Part shown: positions 4,419 through 51,096 of the stretch, one piece after another
Layout of the letters: each line of letters begins with the position of its first letter
How positions within the stretch are numbered: position 1 is the stretch's first letter
Assembly: GCA_016184125.1 (NCBI GenBank)
Contig: JACPDG010000039.1
Span: 62,001-126,000 of the forward strand
Length of the DNA stretch: 64,000 bases
Origin: Candidatus Rokuibacteriota bacterium
GTDB taxonomy: Bacteria > Methylomirabilota > Methylomirabilia > Rokubacteriales > CSP1-6
Direction: 5' to 3'
The notes under the pieces: generated by a model
The model's input: only the letters and a program-made list of their open reading frames with translations
Told to the model about the DNA's origin: nothing
The model's database searches: none
Translations under genes and position numbers: made by a program

Positions 4419-5009
4419 TCAGTTGTCGCAGGGCGCCGCCGTCTTCGCCGGCCGCTTCGTCGTGCCGTCGCCGGCCTTGTCGTCACGCGGATGGAAGACC
4501 GCTTTCACCCGATCCTGCTTGCCGCCCTGCACGACGCTCCGGTCCTGCGCGAGGAAGATGGTGATCGTCTCGCCGCTGACCACGTTGTCATCCTGCCAGA
4601 CACGCGCGCCGCCGGACAGCACGAGGCGCTGCTCGAGGTCGAAGTACTCGGCCCGCTTCGCGGTCCCCGTCCGGCAATCGCGGGTGACGATCCTGACGCT
4701 GCCCGTCGACACCGTACGGAGGATCCGGTCGCCCTTCTCGTCGAAGTAGACCTCCATGCGCTCGGCGTACTGCACGGAGTTGCCCTGTCGGGCGACCACG
4801 TTGCCGGTGAACACCACCAGGCCTTCCCTGCCGTAGCGCTCCATCCGGTCGGCGTCCACCGTGACCGGTTGCGTCTTTCCGTCCTCGTCCTTGGCCGCCG
4901 GACCGCCACCGCGCGGCGGCGTCTGCGCGGCCGCGCCCGAGGGGGGCGCGGCCGCGCCCGGCGTAGCCAGCAGCGCCACGAGACCGATCGCGGCGATCAC
5001 GCGGCGCAT
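4419..5009 (-). CDS. lptA: LPS transport periplasmic protein (OstA-like)
   Basis: QPVTVDADRMERYGREGLVVFTGNVVARQGN...; position between lptC and lptB. Confidence 0.88.
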   Translation of the reverse strand: MRRVIAAIGLVALLATPGAAAPPSGAAAQTPPRGGGPAAKDEDGKTQPVTVDADRMERYGREGLVVFTGNVVARQGNSVQYAERMEVYFDEKGDRILRTVSTGSVRIVTRDCRTGTAKRAEYFDLEQRLVLSGGARVWQDDNVVSGETITIFLAQDRSVVQGGKQDRVKAVFHPRDDKAGDGTTKRPAKTAAPCDN

Positions 5010-5719: not shown

Positions 5720-6739
5720 TCAATAGACGATCTTTGCCCGAAGGATGTCGTGCAGGCGAATCAGACCGACGGGCCGCTGCTGGTCGTCGACGATGACCAG
5801 GCTCGTGATCTGGAACGCCTCCATGATTTCGAGCGCTTTTGCGGCAAGCTCCTCCTTCCGGATGAGCTTCGGGTTCCGGGTCGCGATCTGCCCGGCCGCG
5901 ACGCCCGGACGGTCGTGGCCTCCCAGGTGCACGCGCCGCAGGTCGCCGTCCGTGAAGACGCCGATGAGCCGACCGGCAGCGTCGACGACCGTCGTCATGC
6001 CGAAGTTCTTGCGCGTCATCTCCGCGATGACATCCTTCAGCGACGCGCCCTCCGGAACCACGGGGACCGCGTCACCCGTGACCATCAGGTCGGCCACCCG
6101 GAGGAGTGCGCGCCAGCCGAGCGCCCCTCGCGGGTGTAGCGCCGCATAGTCCTCGGGACGTAACCCGCGTCGCTCGAGCAGCGCCATGGCGAGCGCATCG
6201 CCCATCGCCAGTGTCGCGGTGGTCGACGAGGTCGGCGCCAGGTTCATCGGGCACGCCTCCTCCACGACGCTGACGTCGAGCACGACCTCGCACTGCCGCG
6301 ACAGGGTCGAGGCCGGGTTGCCGGTCATCAGGATGATCGGCACGCCGAGCCGCTTGAGCGGCGGCACCACTGCGAGCACCTCGTCCGTCTCGCCCGAGTT
6401 CGACAGGGCGAGCACGACGTCGCCGCGCGCCACCATGCCGATGTCCCCGTGCACGCCCTCCGCCGGGTGCAGGAAGTACGCGGGTGTCCCCGTCGATGCG
6501 AGCGTCGCCGCGATCTTGCGGCCGATGATCCCGGACTTGCCCATGCCGGTCACGATCACGCGGCCCATGCAGCCCCAGAGCACCTCGATCGCCCGATCGA
6601 AGCGCTCGTCGAGCTTCGGGATGAGCGCCAGGATGGCGTCGGCCTCGATCCTCAGCACGCGCGCCGCGAGCGCGGCCGCGCGCCCCTCGGGCGCGGCCGC
6701 GCGCCCCTCGGGCGCGGCCGCGCGCCCCTCGGGGCTCAT
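5720..6739 (-). CDS. kdsD: D-arabinose-5-phosphate isomerase (KpsF/GutQ)
   Basis: SIS domain [37 protein letters not shown] plus two CBS domains; start ATG at 6737-6739. Confidence 0.93.
6670..6732. repeat. 3 x 21-bp perfect tandem repeat in the kdsD 5' end (EGRAAAP)
   Basis: (gcgcggccgcgcgcccctcgg)x3. Confidence 0.95.
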
Positions 6740-7587
6740 GCGCCCGGGCCCCGGGGTCGAAGCGCCCTCTCGATGCCGAGCACCTCGTCCAGCAGCCGAG
6801 GCAGGTCGTCGATCCTCAGCATGTTGGGCCCGTCCGAGAGCGGACGGCCGTCGGGCAGCGTCCGATCGGGGTCCTCGTGCATCTCCATGAACAGCGCGTC
6901 GACGCCGACGGCGATCGCCGCCCGCGCGAGCGCCGGAACGTACTTCCGCTCGCCGCCCGAGCGATCGCCCGCGCCGCCCGGAAGCTGCACGGCATGCGTC
7001 GCGTCGAAGACGACCGGGTACCCGAGGTCGCGCATGTCCGGCAGCCCCCGCATGTCGACGACCAGGTTGTGATACCCGAACGACGTCCCCCGCTCGGTGA
7101 GCAGGATGCGCTCGTTGCCGGTCGACCGGATCTTCTCGGCGACGTGCTTCATGTCCCGCGGCGTGACGAACTGGCCCTTCTTCACGTTGACCGGCTTTCC
7201 GGTGCGGCCCGCGGCGACCAGGAGATCCGTCTGCCGGCAGAGGAACGCCGGGATCTGGACGACGTCGAGCACCTCGGCGGCCGGCCCGACCTCGGACACC
7301 TGGTGGACGTCGGACAGCACCGGCACGCCGACCGCCTCCCGCACGCGCGCCAGGATGCGCAGCCCCTCGACGAGCCCCGGCCCCCGGTAGCTGGCGATCG
7401 ACGACCGGTTGGCCTTGTCGTACGACGACTTGTAGATGAACGGGACGCGCTTCGCGGCGGCGATCGAGGCGAGTCGCTCGGCTGTCATCAGCGCGTGCTT
7501 CTCGTTCTCGATCGCGCATGGCCCCCCGATGAGGACCAGGGGATGCCCGGCGCCGATCGTGACTGGTCCGACCTCGACTGACTTCAT
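6736..7587 (-). CDS. kdsA: 3-deoxy-8-phosphooctulonate synthase
   Basis: [43 protein letters not shown]; overlaps kdsD by 4 nt. Confidence 0.95.
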
Positions 7588-14057: not shown

Positions 14058-15533
14058 TCACCGTGCGCCTGCTCCCCGGCGTGGGTACGCCGCAGACGGC
14101 GTGCGTGCGGTCGCTGCGCCATCGCCCGTCAACCGGCCGAGCACTCGCGCCGCAGCGTCGGCGAGGCGCTCGCCCGCCTCGGGTCCGTGGACGCTCGCAC
14201 ACGTGACGTAGCTCACCCGGTCCCAGTCCTCCGTTTCCACGAGGTAGCCGAGGTAGTCGTTCGACAGACCAGCCACGAACGGCGCCGCTACCCGTGGACG
14301 GACGCGTTGCTTGATGCGCATGCCCAGCGACGACTGCAGCTCCCCCGGCATCGTGACCCACGCCGTGTCGCCGGCAGCCACGCCGACGAGCATCGCCTCG
14401 CCCGGAAACACGCGCCCGAGGGGAACACGGACGGCGCGCGGCACCCAGCGTCCCACGCAGTTCCGCACGCTGAGCGCGGCACCGGCGAGATCGACGCGCT
14501 CGTGCGCGACCGCCGGCGGCGTCGAATCCCGTGCCTCGGTGCGACGGGCAGCGTCCTCCACCGCTCGCGCGAGCTGCTCCGCCGTCGCCGCCAGCGCACC
14601 GTCGCCGTGGCCCCGGGGGCTCACGTCACCGACCGCGCCGTTCACGAACAGCGCCGGCGCCCCGATGCTCGCCTCGATCCGCGCGGACGCGACGCCCATG
14701 ACATCGCCGGACAGCCGGTGGTTGCGCGGTCCCAGCATGGTTCCGTGAATCGCGAAGTTCCACACGAGCGCGATCACCGGCCCCTCGGGACGGGTGATCT
14801 TCATGACGGTCAGCTCGCGGTCGATCGGATCTCCGAGGCGTGGCCGGGTGACCGGCGGCCCCGGGACGGACAGCGTGCCGATGCGGGCCGGCACGCGCGC
14901 GCGATCCGCCCGGCGCGCCACTTCCACCATCGCGTCGAGAATCGCCTCCCGGACCTCGGTGTTCGAGCGGTCGAGCGCGACGAGGCCCATCACGGCGGAT
15001 TCGATGAAGGCGCCCGGCCCGGAGTGCGTGTGTGACGCCGAGACGATCAACGTGTCCGGGCCCGACGGGTCGAGGCCGAGGCGGCGCTCGAGCTCACGCG
15101 TGAAGCCGCGGTCGACGCCGATCAGGTCCGCGGTGAGCCAGACCACGCGACGCCCGTCGCCCTCGAGCACGAGCGCGCGCGCCGCCAGCCGATCGCGCTC
15201 GCCGACGCTCGGCCGGAACCAGAACGCGTACGGATGACGGCCGAGGACGTCCGGGACGTAGAGACGGCGCGAGAGCGAACCATAGCCGGCGAGCGGCGTG
15301 CCCGTCGGCACGACGAGATCCACCCGGGCCGCGCCCGCGCTGAGAGTTCGCGCAACAATCGCGCGCCGGGGCGGGCGATTGTCGCTCGAACTGAGTCGTG
15401 CGGCGCCGCGCCCCTCTCCCCGCAGCCGCCCCGGAGTCGGCGCGCCGGGCGAGGGCGCCGGACCGGCAGCGGTCGCACGCGACGCGACCAAGAACAGCGC
15501 CGCAAGCGCAAAGCACGCAACCACAAGTGGCAT
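14058..15533 (-). CDS. neutral/alkaline ceramidase-like secreted hydrolase
   Basis: signal peptide; LTADLIGVDRGF...IVSASHTHSGPGAF..., FAIHGTMLGPRNHRLSGDVMG, GAVGDVSPRG. Confidence 0.75.
   Translation of the reverse strand: MPLVVACFALAALFLVASRATAAGPAPSPGAPTPGRLRGEGRGAARLSSSDNRPPRRAIVARTLSAGAARVDLVVPTGTPLAGYGSLSRRLYVPDVLGRHPYAFWFRPSVGERDRLAARALVLEGDGRRVVWLTADLIGVDRGFTRELERRLGLDPSGPDTLIVSASHTHSGPGAFIESAVMGLVALDRSNTEVREAILDAMVEVARRADRARVPARIGTLSVPGPPVTRPRLGDPIDRELTVMKITRPEGPVIALVWNFAIHGTMLGPRNHRLSGDVMGVASARIEASIGAPALFVNGAVGDVSPRGHGDGALAATAEQLARAVEDAARRTEARDSTPPAVAHERVDLAGAALSVRNCVGRWVPRAVRVPLGRVFPGEAMLVGVAAGDTAWVTMPGELQSSLGMRIKQRVRPRVAAPFVAGLSNDYLGYLVETEDWDRVSYVTCASVHGPEAGERLADAAARVLGRLTGDGAATARTPSAAYPRRGAGAR
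15341..15394. repeat. 54-bp coding palindromic element, copy A (in the ceramidase-like gene)
   Basis: tgagagttcgcgcaacaatcgcgcgccggggcgggcgattgtcgctcgaactga; about 87% identical to 48290-48343 reversed (47/54 by hand alignment). Confidence 0.8.
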
Positions 15534-15634
15534 GCACGACCGCGCGCAGTGCCCGGCGCGACCGACGCGGCGGGTCGTGGGCAGAGACCCTGCCCCGCTC
15601 CGCCACGTCCCGCCGCCCGCGTCCGCCGCGCCCG

Positions 15635-24182: not shown

Positions 24183-24331
24183 CGGCTCGGGGGTGGCGCC
24201 GGGGGGTCCGCGCGCCCGCCGCGCTCCGTCACCCACTCGACCCACACGCAGTGCTTCGCACTGCGAGGGTACGAGGGGGTCCCACTCACGCGCGCCGGGC
24301 GCGCGGACCCCCCGGCGCCACCCCCGAGCCG
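24183..24331. mobile_element. MITE-like inverted repeat, 35-bp perfect arms
   Basis: 24183-24217 cggctcgggggtggcgccggggggtccgcgcgccc is the exact reverse complement of 24297-24331; tcacgcg at 24171-24177 and 24333-24339. Confidence 0.7.
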
Positions 24332-46515: not shown

Positions 46516-48351
46516 CTATGCCGTTCGCGCGCCCATCGAGAGCTCGTACAGCTTGGCGTAGAGGCCACCGGCGCGGAGCAAGGTCTGGTGCGTGCCTTCC
46601 TCGTGCACGCGGCCACGGTGCAGCACGAGCATGCGATCGGCGCCCTGAATCGTCGCCAGCCGGTGCGCGATCGTGACCGTCGTGCGCCCGGCGACGAGCT
46701 CCCGCATGGCCTCCTGGATCAGTCGCTCCGATCCGGGATCGACGCTCGACGTCGCCTCGTCCAGGATCAGGACGGCGGGATTGTACACAAGCGCTCGCGC
46801 GATCGCCAGAAGCTGGCGCTGTCCCTGCGAGACGTTGTGCCCGCGCTCGCCGAGCTCCTCCCCGAGGCCGCGCGGCAGCGACTCGATGAACGTCCGTGCG
46901 TTCGCGAGCTTCACGGCCCGATCGAGGTCGGCGCTCGACACCGTGCCGTCGGCGCCGAGCCGGAGGTTCGCCTCGACCGTCCCCGTGAACAGCAGCGTGT
47001 CCTGGAACACGATGCCGACGTGCCGGCGCAGCCGCTCGAGGTCCCACTCGCGGACGTCGACGCCGTCGACGAGCACCTGGCCCCGCACGACGTCGTACGA
47101 GCGGTTCAGCAACCGCGCGCACGTCGTCTTCCCCTCGCCGGTCGCGCCGACGATCGCCACGTGCTCGCCGCGCGCCACCTGGAACGAGCAGTCGCGGAGC
47201 ACCCAGTCCTCGCCCTCGTACGCGAACCAGACCCCGCGGAACTCGAGCGCCGGCGTCCCGGCCGTCGGCCGCGCGATGGAGGGCGACGCCGGCGAGACGA
47301 TCGCGGGCCGCACCTCGAGCAGGCCGAAGATCCGCTCCGAGGAAGCCATCGCCGCCTGCATGACCGCGTACTTGGCGCCGAGGTCGCGGATCGGCAGGAA
47401 GAAGCGATGGGTGTACTGCATGAACGCGACCAGCGCGCCGAAGGTCAGGCCGCCGGACGCGATCTGTGACCCGCCGTACCAGACGAGCAGCGCGAGCGCG
47501 ACGGACCCCAGCGCCTCGACCGAGGCGTAGAGCGACGCCTCGAACATCGTCGAGCCGAACAGCGCGCGCCGGTAGTCGCCGTTCAGACGGCGAAACGATG
47601 CGTGCTCGTGGCGCTCCCGGGCGAAGAGCTGGATCACGCTCATGCCCTGGAGCGACTCCTGGAGGAACCCGTTCAGGCGCGCGAGGCGGCGCCGCACCTC
47701 GCGGTACGCGTCCCGGGAGCGCACGCGGAAGTACGCGGCGGCGACGAGGAGCGCCGGCACGATCGAGAACGTGACCAGCGCCAGCCGCCAGTCCATCCAG
47801 AGCATGATCGCGACGACGCCGGCGAGCGTCACGACGTCGGCGACGACGGCGAAGAGGCCCCCGGTGAAGGCGTCGTTCACGGCCTCGACGTCGTTCAGCA
47901 CGCGCGTCATCAGCCGGCCCACCGGGTTCCGGTCGAAGAACCGCGCGTCGAGCGCCAGGAGGCGCTCGAAGAGCGCCGCTCGCAGGTCGTGCATCACCCG
48001 CTGCCCCGTGAGGTGCATCAGGTACGACTCCACGGTGTGGAGCGCGTAGAGCGCGGCGAGCGTCGCGAGGTAGAACCCGGCGATCGTGGCGAGGCCCGCC
48101 CAGTCGGCGCGCAGGATGTGCTCGTCGATCGCGACCTTCACGAGCCACGGCTGCAGGAGCTCGACGGCCGCGACGACCGGGAACAGGAGCATGCCCGCTA
48201 CGACCAGCCGCCGGTGCGGGCGGGTGGTCTGCCAGAGCCGCGCGATCAGTCGCCGGTCGAACGCGCGTCCCAGGACCTCGTCGTCGGCGTCAGTTCGAGC
48301 AACAATCGACCGCCGCGGCGGTCGATTGGTGCGCGATCTCTCACGGCGCAT
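46516..48351 (-). CDS. MsbA-like ABC transporter (fused permease-ATPase)
   Basis: VAIVGATGEGKTTCARLLNRSYD; NVSQGQRQLLAIARALVYNPAVLILDEATSSVD; ATG overlaps the upstream stop. Confidence 0.9.
   Translation of the reverse strand: MRRERSRTNRPPRRSIVARTDADDEVLGRAFDRRLIARLWQTTRPHRRLVVAGMLLFPVVAAVELLQPWLVKVAIDEHILRADWAGLATIAGFYLATLAALYALHTVESYLMHLTGQRVMHDLRAALFERLLALDARFFDRNPVGRLMTRVLNDVEAVNDAFTGGLFAVVADVVTLAGVVAIMLWMDWRLALVTFSIVPALLVAAAYFRVRSRDAYREVRRRLARLNGFLQESLQGMSVIQLFARERHEHASFRRLNGDYRRALFGSTMFEASLYASVEALGSVALALLVWYGGSQIASGGLTFGALVAFMQYTHRFFLPIRDLGAKYAVMQAAMASSERIFGLLEVRPAIVSPASPSIARPTAGTPALEFRGVWFAYEGEDWVLRDCSFQVARGEHVAIVGATGEGKTTCARLLNRSYDVVRGQVLVDGVDVREWDLERLRRHVGIVFQDTLLFTGTVEANLRLGADGTVSSADLDRAVKLANARTFIESLPRGLGEELGERGHNVSQGQRQLLAIARALVYNPAVLILDEATSSVDPGSERLIQEAMRELVAGRTTVTIAHRLATIQGADRMLVLHRGRVHEEGTHQTLLRAGGLYAKLYELSMGARTA
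48290..48343. repeat. 54-bp coding palindromic element, copy B (perfect 24-bp palindrome at 48304-48327)
   Basis: tcagttcgagcaacaatcgaccgccgcggcggtcgattggtgcgcgatctctca. Confidence 0.85.
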
Positions 48352-50044
48352 GCGCGATCTCTTCCTCGAGCTGCTGGATGCGCCAGAGCCGTGCGTAGAG
48401 GCCGCCCCGCTCGATGAGCGCGTCGTGTGTCCCGGTCTCGACGACACGGCCGGCGTCGAGCACGACGATGCGGTCCGCGGCGCGCGCCGCCCGCAGCCGG
48501 TGGGTCGTCAGCAGCACCGTGCGGCCGTGCAGCGCGCCCGCGAGGTTCCCGAGGATCTCCTCCTCCTTCGCCGCGTCGACGTTCGCGAAGACGTCGTCGA
48601 GGACGAGGATGGGCGCCTCGCCCGCGAGCGCGCGGGCGAGCGCGACGCGCTGCCGCTGCCCGCCCGACAGCGTCAGGCCGCGCTCGCCGACGACCGTGTC
48701 GAGGCCTCGCGGAAGCCCCTCGATCTCTTCGGCGACGCCGGCCAGCACGATGGCCTGCTTGGCCTCGACCTGATCGACGTCCGGCCGCGCGAGCGTCACG
48801 TTGTCCTGGATCGAGCGCGAGAACAGGAACGACTCCTGCGGCACGTACGCGACGTCCCCGCGCAGCGTCGCAAGGTCCATCGCCGTGACGTCCTGCCCCC
48901 CGACGAAGACGGTGCCGATCGGCGGATCCCACAGGCGTACCAGGAGCAGCCCGAGCGTGGACTTCCCGCTGCCTGTCGGCCCGACCACGGCCACCACCTC
49001 GCCCTCGCCGACCTCGAAGGTCACGTCGACCAGCGCCGGCGCGCGGTCGCCGTACGTGAACGCCAGACCGCGGAACGCGAGGGCGCGGGAGCGCGGCGCG
49101 GGACCTCCGCGCGGCACGCGTCGTGACGCCTCGGTCCGCTCGACGTCAGGTACCGCCTCGACGACCTCCTGGATGCGCCCCATCGACGTGAGGCCGCGGC
49201 GGACCATGGACAGCGTCCACCCGAGCGCCAGCGTCGGCCACGCGAGGTACGCGAGGTACCCGTTGAACGCGACGAGCGAGCCGAGCGTGATCCGGCCTTC
49301 GACGACCGCGAGGCCTCCGGCCCAGAGGACGACGAGCGTCCCGACGCCGGCGATCAGGCTCATCAGCGGCGTGAACTGCGCCTGGATCCGCGAGAGCGCC
49401 AGCGCGTGCCGCAGGTATGCCGCGCTCGCCTGGCCGAACGTCTCCCGCGCCTGGCCCTCCATCGCATACGCGCGAACGACGCTCATCCCGGCGAGATGCT
49501 CCTGCACCCGCCCCGACAGCACGCCGAGCTGGCCCTGCATCGCCTCCGTCCGCTCGTGCACGAGCGAGGTGAAGCGACGCGCCAGCAAGATCATCGCGGG
49601 AAACGGCAGCATCGCCCAGAGCGTGAGCCACGGGTCCACGACGACCATCGCGGCGATCGCGCCGACGAAGGCGAACGTCGTCTGGATCATGCTCACGCCA
49701 CCGAACCCGACGACGGTCTTCACGCCGGACACGTCGCTCGTTGCGCGGGCCATCAGGTCTCCCGTCGGGTAGCGAGTGAACAGCGCCGGGGGAAAGCGCG
49801 TCAGGCTCGCGTACAGGTCGTCCCGGATGTCCGCCTCCACGCGCTGGGCCGCCCCGATCATCGCCAGGCGTGACCCGAGACGCGCGGCGGCGTTGATCGC
49901 CGCGAGCCCCAGGATGGATCCCACGAACACACCGAGCGCCGCGTTCGCGGCGTCGGTCTCGAGCGCTTCCACCGCGCGCTTCACGGTCCACGGGATCCCG
50001 AGGCTCGCGAGCGTGGCGATGGCGAGACAGAGGACGCCCCCCAC
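48341..50044 (-). CDS. MsbA-like ABC transporter (fused permease-ATPase); true N-terminus may extend upstream
   Basis: VAVVGPTGSGKSTLGLLLVRLWDP; LSGGQRQRVALARALAGEAPILVLDDVFANVD. Confidence 0.9.
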   Translation of the reverse strand: MGGVLCLAIATLASLGIPWTVKRAVEALETDAANAALGVFVGSILGLAAINAAARLGSRLAMIGAAQRVEADIRDDLYASLTRFPPALFTRYPTGDLMARATSDVSGVKTVVGFGGVSMIQTTFAFVGAIAAMVVVDPWLTLWAMLPFPAMILLARRFTSLVHERTEAMQGQLGVLSGRVQEHLAGMSVVRAYAMEGQARETFGQASAAYLRHALALSRIQAQFTPLMSLIAGVGTLVVLWAGGLAVVEGRITLGSLVAFNGYLAYLAWPTLALGWTLSMVRRGLTSMGRIQEVVEAVPDVERTEASRRVPRGGPAPRSRALAFRGLAFTYGDRAPALVDVTFEVGEGEVVAVVGPTGSGKSTLGLLLVRLWDPPIGTVFVGGQDVTAMDLATLRGDVAYVPQESFLFSRSIQDNVTLARPDVDQVEAKQAIVLAGVAEEIEGLPRGLDTVVGERGLTLSGGQRQRVALARALAGEAPILVLDDVFANVDAAKEEEILGNLAGALHGRTVLLTTHRLRAARAADRIVVLDAGRVVETGTHDALIERGGLYARLWRIQQLEEEIAHAP

Positions 50045-50097
50045 GTAGCGAGCCCGGTAGCGCGAGGCGTAGCGCCAGAGCGCCCGAGCGGAAGCGC

Positions 50098-51096
50098 TCA
50101 GCCCTGCCTCCCCTCGGGCGCGGCCGCGCGCCCCTCGGGCGCGGCCGCGCGCCCCTCGGGCGCGGCCGCGCGCCCCTCGGCGACCTGGCCTGCCGCGTGG
50201 GGCTTGAGCGCCGCGTAGACGGCGAACAGCATCGGTGTCGGCACCCCGAGGCGCTCACCGAGGCGCACGGCGTGGCCGTGCAGCGTCTCGAGCTCCAGGC
50301 GCTTGCCCTGGAGCAGGTCGTGGTGGAGGGACGACGTCGTCTCCGGCCCGAGCGCCGCGGCGGTCTTCATGATCGTCTCGACCACGTCGGCGGCCATGCC
50401 TGCCCCCGCACGCGCGCCGAGCGCGGCGAGCTCCTCGAGCATCATCCGGTACATCCGCCACGTCTCGGGCACCGGACGAATCACCCCGGTGCTGGCGCGC
50501 GTGAGCGCGGTCATGCCCGCCTGCGCGCAGATGAACAGGTACTTCTCCCAGAGCACGCGACGGATCTCCGTCGAGACCTCCACCGGGACCCCGGCGTTCG
50601 CGAGCGCGTCGCGCAGGCGCTCGACGCGCGGCGTGAGACGCCCGTCCATCTCGCCGAGCACGATCCGCCCCAGGAACCGGTGCGCGACGACGCCGGGCGA
50701 CTCGATCGTCGCGAAGACGTACGCGGCGCCGCCGAGCGCGTGGCCGGCGCCGAGCGCCGCGTCGATCTTCTCCGGCCCGTCGACGCCGTTCTGCAGCGTC
50801 AGGACCGGCGTGTCGCGACCGACGACCGGCCGGATCGTCTCGAGCGCCCGGGCGGTGTCGAATCCCTTCACGGAGAGGACCACGGCGTCGGCCCGTGGCC
50901 GGCCCTCGAGCGACGTCGCGACCTCCGGCTTCGCGAGCCACTCGCCCTCGATCATCGACCGCACGCGAAGCCCCCGGTACCGGATCGCGTCCGCGTGCGC
51001 ACCGCGCGCGACCATCGTGACCGCCTCGCCCGCGCGCGCGAGCTTGCCCCCGAAGTATCCGCCCACACCACCTGCGCCCATGACGACGATGTGCAT
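50098..51096 (-). CDS. panE: 2-dehydropantoate 2-reductase
   Basis: MHIVVMGAGGVGGYFGGKLARAGEAVTMVARG; KTAAALGPETTSSLHHDLLQGKRLELETLHG. Confidence 0.9.
   Translation of the reverse strand: MHIVVMGAGGVGGYFGGKLARAGEAVTMVARGAHADAIRYRGLRVRSMIEGEWLAKPEVATSLEGRPRADAVVLSVKGFDTARALETIRPVVGRDTPVLTLQNGVDGPEKIDAALGAGHALGGAAYVFATIESPGVVAHRFLGRIVLGEMDGRLTPRVERLRDALANAGVPVEVSTEIRRVLWEKYLFICAQAGMTALTRASTGVIRPVPETWRMYRMMLEELAALGARAGAGMAADVVETIMKTAAALGPETTSSLHHDLLQGKRLELETLHGHAVRLGERLGVPTPMLFAVYAALKPHAAGQVAEGRAAAPEGRAAAPEGRAAAPEGRQG
50118..50180. repeat. 3 x 21-bp perfect tandem repeat in the panE 3' end, identical to 6670-6732
   Basis: (gcgcggccgcgcgcccctcgg)x3. Confidence 0.95.

Follow-up and report, generated by a model that had tools for sequence, protein, structure and literature searches.

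Protein-coding palindromes are known mainly from Rickettsia, and the small dispersed repeats (SDR) of cyanobacteria are reportedly very small mobile repeats, some of them hairpin-like. The classic in-frame palindromes are the Rickettsia palindromic elements (RPEs; Ogata 2000, 2002), the first described of which measure about 150 bp (PMC10969869), and bacterial MITEs (RUP, Correia, ERIC etc.) span 70–300 bp (PMC10969869). REPs carry a GTAG or CGTC tag at one end, and in the GTAG families their stems are mostly 6–9 bp long; REP termini often supply the TAG stop of flanking ORFs, and some REPs lie within ORFs (PMC3733652).

Here we analyzed a hairpin at positions 15341–15394 of the window, a 64,000-nt stretch of a Candidatus Rokuibacteriota genome (4.09 Mb, 121 contigs, draft, 93% complete). 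This feature very probably belongs to a non-autonomous mobile hairpin element that has an N-GA-N target and is present in about 98 copies; no earlier report of the hairpin family in Rokubacteria was found in the literature. Like the RPEs, these palindromic repeats occur in frame in unrelated protein genes and at tolerated sites. They differ from RPEs as these have been described in a length of 51 nt, a defined N-GA-N target, a mostly stop-sited or intergenic location, a Rokubacteriota host and a frame preference explained by the target. From the SDR, as these are described in general, they are set apart by lineage and sequence. With bacterial MITEs they share a non-autonomous nature, inverted ends, a short target duplication and occasional in-frame fusion, yet they fall below the MITE size range and no parent IS was identified in their draft genome. 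High-copy hairpins near 3′ ends with a tetranucleotide at the foot also recall the REP/REPIN-RAYT systems (PMC3733652; TnpA-REP, PMC8266576), from which the element departs in several ways: each foot has TGAG where REPs have GTAG/CGTC at a single foot, the stem is 22 bp long, there is evidence that the outer bases derive from the target, and no RAYT was found in its own or same-genus genomes. The family works like REP/RPE elements, yet it is neither a GTAG nor a CGTC REP.

Sequence, copy number and distribution of the hairpin family

The initial annotation had described the palindrome and a second copy in the same window (Table 1), and had proposed a genome-wide search for more. Both copies are real and far beyond chance: a left-half pattern with ≤2 mismatches was found at 101 places in the genome vs. 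4 for the reversed control pattern, and a strict two-ended pattern gave 51 matches vs. 0 for the reversed control. A profile built from 44 copies detected 92 non-overlapping copies in 447 kb of retrieved sequence, stretches retrieved afterwards added another 6, and the hairpin at 15341–15394 is one member of this near-identical family. Left ends outside full copies look like chance matches or decayed copies, not IS ends. An origin as chance palindromes in GC-rich coding DNA, or by convergence, is contradicted by the strict matches and their control; nothing speaks in its favor after the genome-wide count, and we regard its probability as negligible.

Table 1. Coordinates of the hairpin copies, their host genes and other repeats in the window
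Feature	Position	Strand	Details
Hairpin copy 1 with target bases	15341..15395	+	N1=T 15341, GA 15342-15343, body 15344-15392 (49 nt), GA 15393-15394, N2=G 15395
Hairpin copy 2 with target bases	48289..48343	-	N1=T 48343, N2=C 48289; left TGA 48341-48343 serves the upstream ABC gene as stop codon
Neutral ceramidase-like protein	14058..15535	-	PF04734, E 3e-23; start codon inferred from the signal peptide
ABC transporter	46516..48351	-	PF00664 + PF00005; N-terminus MRRE-[17 aa]-ADDEVLGRAFD, copy 2 in frame; the 17 residues absent from orthologs
Upstream ABC transporter gene	48341..50044	-	Stop TGA common to the left end of the element, same place as in relatives
Second intergenic repeat (starts)	954, 4235, 7584, 13849, 26538, 45854, 46286, 54280, 62819
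21-bp tandem repeats	6643-6753, 50091-50201		GGCCGCGCGCCCCTCGGGCGC; inverted partner at 4925-4960
42-nt inverted repeat	24183-24331		98% complementary, spacer 65 nt

The family consensus is N1-GA[ GAGTTCGAGCAACAATCGACCGCCG-CGGC-GGTCGATTGTTGCTCGAACT ]GA-N2, and with the TGAG tetranucleotide present at both feet it reads TGAG-AGTTCGAGCAACAATCGACCGCCG-CGGC-GGTCGATTGTTGCTCGAAC-TGAG, with sharp borders and unrelated flanks. The 49-nt body begins with GAGTTCGAGC and finishes with GCTCGAACT, its stem has 22 bp and its loop 4 nt. Copy 1, an almost perfect palindrome, has TGAG at either side (15341–15344 and 15392–15395), and it aligns with copy 2 over 59 nt at 85%. The compensatory stem changes first seen between these two copies hold true family-wide: among 50 symmetric copies, both partners had changed in 42 pair cells, and 500 shuffles gave a mean of 7.2 and a maximum of 15. 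In one subfamily a loop base is deleted and a stem base inserted (1 nt each), which leaves the length unchanged; another has stems of the form GTGAAAC...GTTTCYAC. Comparison with Rfam gave a best match of E 0.44, far below the family cut-off. Tandem pairs were observed at C28:78468–78573 (L116) and C38:60654–60760 (L038) of the host genome (G000); each joins different subfamilies with a single CTGAG common to both, as if one element had been inserted into the end of the other.

Occurrence outside the host genome is sparse. No copies were found in the same-genus genome G001, while one or two diverged copies are present in the same-genus G002 (QHRT01000376.1, Candidatus Rokuibacteriota isolate AR8) and one in G056, from another family of the class; the strict end pattern is absent from 92 other genomes of the class. 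Since the family is nearly restricted to its own genome, with none in G001, it has spread recently in this lineage. A search of 85,462 genomes returned 57 matches to the end pattern vs. ~56 expected by chance (264e9 x 2 x 29 / 4^19), none of them in Rickettsia. The end pattern also gave 10 matches in viral contigs, and a stricter interior pattern gave none in the wide-occurrence search. The hairpin in G056 (C12:26573, L181) has the same terminal GAGAGTTCGAGCAAC...GTTGCTCGAACTGAG around a different core, which may point to a lineage of the element that is older or was transferred.

Target site, inserted length and reading frame

The inner GAG and TGA hardly vary across the copies, but the outermost bases do. 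N2 differs from G in 10/31 stop-sited vs. 4/55 other copies (p=0.005). N1 differs from T in 8/12 in-gene vs. 7/43 other copies (p=0.0015), the left base of stop-sited copies being T by definition; the right base of the in-gene copies is G, and only one copy deviates at both positions. In all 12 full in-gene copies the length from N1 to N2 is 55 nt. These data fit an N-GA-N target, TGAG being the best, at which insertion repeats GA and adds 51 nt. The N2 statistics speak against IS200-type insertion in which the element itself carries the right TGAG. The palindrome does measure the 54 bp (18 codons) initially assigned to it, but one GA comes from the target, so that insertion adds a net 51 nt (17 codons).

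The clearest empty site was found in the ABC transporter gene. Its orthologs in 20-odd related genomes have a short N-terminus, which in most of them overlaps the stop of the upstream ABC gene, and at the nucleotide level the empty site in same-genus orthologs reads TGAC. The site is ...GTGCGTCGTGACGACGAC... in G001, ...GTGCATCGTGACGAGGACGAC... in G002 and ...ATGCGCCGTGA[G...CTGA]CGCCGACGAC... in the host genome; the compared gene starts are of gcgtGTGcgtcgTGACgacgac type in G001, gcgcGTGcatcgTGACgaggacgac in G002 and gcgcATGcgccgTGA[G...CTGA]Cgccgacgac in the host. The C after the right TGA of the inserted copy corresponds to the C after TGA in the relatives. Subtraction of 51 nt from the host gene gives the length of the G002 gene, and the G001 gene is one codon shorter. 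A clean 17-residue insertion was likewise observed in a glycosyltransferase (C73:152863), whose two orthologs lack exactly these 17 residues. In-frame insertion in unrelated genes, with orthologs lacking the insert, is thus shown for the ABC transporter and the glycosyltransferase. For a copy in an SNF2 helicase the orthologs have a gap of about the same size, though the alignment there is less secure. The initial annotation had considered a case of just two copies, with orthologs free of any indel; we found instead about 98 copies and these clean 17-codon insertions.

The ceramidase-like gene, from which the analysis started, is a less clean example. Its signal peptide MPLVVACFALAALFLVASRATAA lies upstream of the element and the catalytic domain downstream, and the element is read in frame as SSSDNRPPRRAIVARTL. 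The insert separates the signal peptide from the enzyme and so has to be translated. In the orthologs the signal peptide is followed by a mostly short linker of variable length and then by an AGAA-type enzyme start; as the linker length varies, the exact indel position is not placeable. The proposed site between signal peptide and enzyme was borne out, but not a clean 18-codon indel; an insertion in this gene is plausible from the sequence comparison.

Both window copies encode NRPPRR[A/S]IVART in their enclosing frames, as had been noted, and they give the same peptide in opposite orientations because the element is nearly perfectly palindromic. Of 15 in-gene copies, 12 read as xSSSxNRPPRRSIVARTx (ESSSNNRPPRRSIVARTE), 3 are in the second frame and 0 in the third. 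Within genes, 80% of NGAG sites fall in the first frame (a fraction computed from counts), since GAG and CTC are common codons. With 80% expected and 12/15 observed, selection on the peptide is not needed as the cause of the frame bias; the target (GAG/CTC codons) and a length divisible by three together account for the preferred frame. A half element (L116:3627–3654, C28:79526–79553) was also observed inside a CtaG-like cytochrome oxidase assembly gene, in frame as LSSSNNRP.

Placement on stop codons and within genes

Genes around the copies were called on the fetched stretches with a home-made codon-usage caller. In 31/86 copies with resolved ends, the left TGA is the stop codon of a same-orientation upstream gene. 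About 15 of the ~90 resolved copies lie in genes (about 12 full copies, those in the ceramidase and ABC genes, and one half copy), and copies neither in genes nor on stops are intergenic. The initial view of a protein-coding mobile palindrome stands as to mobility and in-frame insertion; with so few copies in genes and about one third on stops, it does not stand as to a protein-coding nature.

Proteins with stop-sited copies mostly end as their orthologs do, whichever stop codon the ortholog uses, and C-termini match in 7/7 orthologs of a sigma factor and 10/10 of an M23 peptidase. Truncation of proteins by element-created stops was rejected as a rule, since in 4 compared genes the C-termini match those of the orthologs, apart from a small number of longer tails. 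The fifth gene compared (C32:39173), whose product is 3–23 residues shorter than its orthologs, may be an exception. As a rule, then, the element occupies native stops and does not create them. Among the stop-codon contexts of the sampled genes TGAG is the most frequent, so copies often land exactly on stop codons. Stops appear to be used a little more frequently than TGAG sites between genes, in a sample biased toward copies, and we do not claim active targeting. In-gene insertions are rare relative to the many TGAG sites inside genes, which is consistent with purifying selection, and the surviving ones are mostly in linkers and termini.

The many copies exactly on stops in the orientation of the gene, together with the stem covariation, could also be expected of a selected RNA structure, a terminator or 3′-end stabilizer, and not a mobile element. 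Near-identical, sharp-ended copies at unrelated loci, in-frame copies inside domains, the target-site pattern, the lack of a T-run and the absence from relatives all argue against this explanation, which we consider very improbable. A role as RNA structure may nevertheless be secondary to the mobile element.

Possible routes of mobility and significance

For the mobile hairpin, which we prefer, the following course is proposed. The element inserts at N-GA-N with a strong preference for TGAG, leaving GA on both sides and adding 51 nt, as the target-base statistics and the empty sites support. An enzyme is inferred to act in trans, perhaps on an extruded single-stranded hairpin as in REP/IS200-type systems, and the mover is most likely an unassembled or lost enzyme. 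Stop-sited copies form a hairpin at the 3′ terminus of the mRNA. In-gene copies survive where the site is a linker or terminus, and in the sampled ones the frame is kept, 51 being a multiple of three. The covariation favors a single-strand (HUH) route and the GA duplication a DDE route, and judged from sequence the two seem about equally open.

In a classical REP, a RAYT (Y1 HUH) recognizes the single-stranded hairpin with a tetranucleotide guide at its foot. Hairpin structure, many copies, a position close to stop codons and insertion into ORFs have all been reported for REPs (PMC3733652), and the tetranucleotide at both feet and the tandem copies agree with such an origin. Its probability is nonetheless rather low, as the GTAG or CGTC tag is missing, the stem far exceeds the 6–9 bp usual in GTAG families and the target-derived N2 implies a 2-bp repeat, which IS200-type insertion would not be expected to leave. 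Moreover, RAYT/Y1 (PF01797) is matched in the host genome only by the C-terminal part of an IS200-like protein, located where a contig ends, the absence of a RAYT being provisional in a draft assembly, and no Y1 transposase was found in the same-genus genomes.

The inverted ends, the apparent 2-bp GA duplication and the outer bases derived from the target would suit instead an exceptionally short MITE derived from a DDE transposon, with GAGTTCGAGC/GCTCGAACT as terminal inverted repeats. However, no parent element with these ends was found among the left and right half patterns and all exact GAGAGTTCGNG sites, a result provisional for the draft genome. Furthermore, the element is a single stem over its whole length and covaries as far as the loop, which is more than end recognition needs. 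We hold this origin, too, to be doubtful. It is conceivable, though our confidence stays below even, that the family is a distinct minimal class of mobile hairpins that targets TGAG, duplicates GA, favors native stops, uses a non-RAYT mover and keeps its length divisible by three.

A second, very abundant intergenic repeat family was noticed in the same sequences. It has the form WTCATGGGGGG...CCCCCC...GCTCGG...CCCGGG...TTCACGGGCTCYGAG, is ~150–200 nt long with two hairpins, and has 66 starts in 447 kb. Both of its borders are often YGAG/YGAC, and it adjoins the hairpin element flush at TGAG; perhaps it is moved by the same machinery. The window also contains 21-bp tandem repeats and a long inverted repeat (Table 1).

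The family provides a case outside Rickettsia in which a protein-coding palindrome can be dissected, with target rule, length and frame interdependent and empty sites at hand. It shows that a peptide frame can be preferred without selection for the peptide, as target choice suffices, which bears on the reading of RPE and REP insertions in genes. Its placement on stop codons parallels the GTAG REPs that give TAG stops and suggests a common route for small hairpins to gene ends. If the family is indeed a distinct class, the element can seed 17-residue peptides into proteins without a frameshift.
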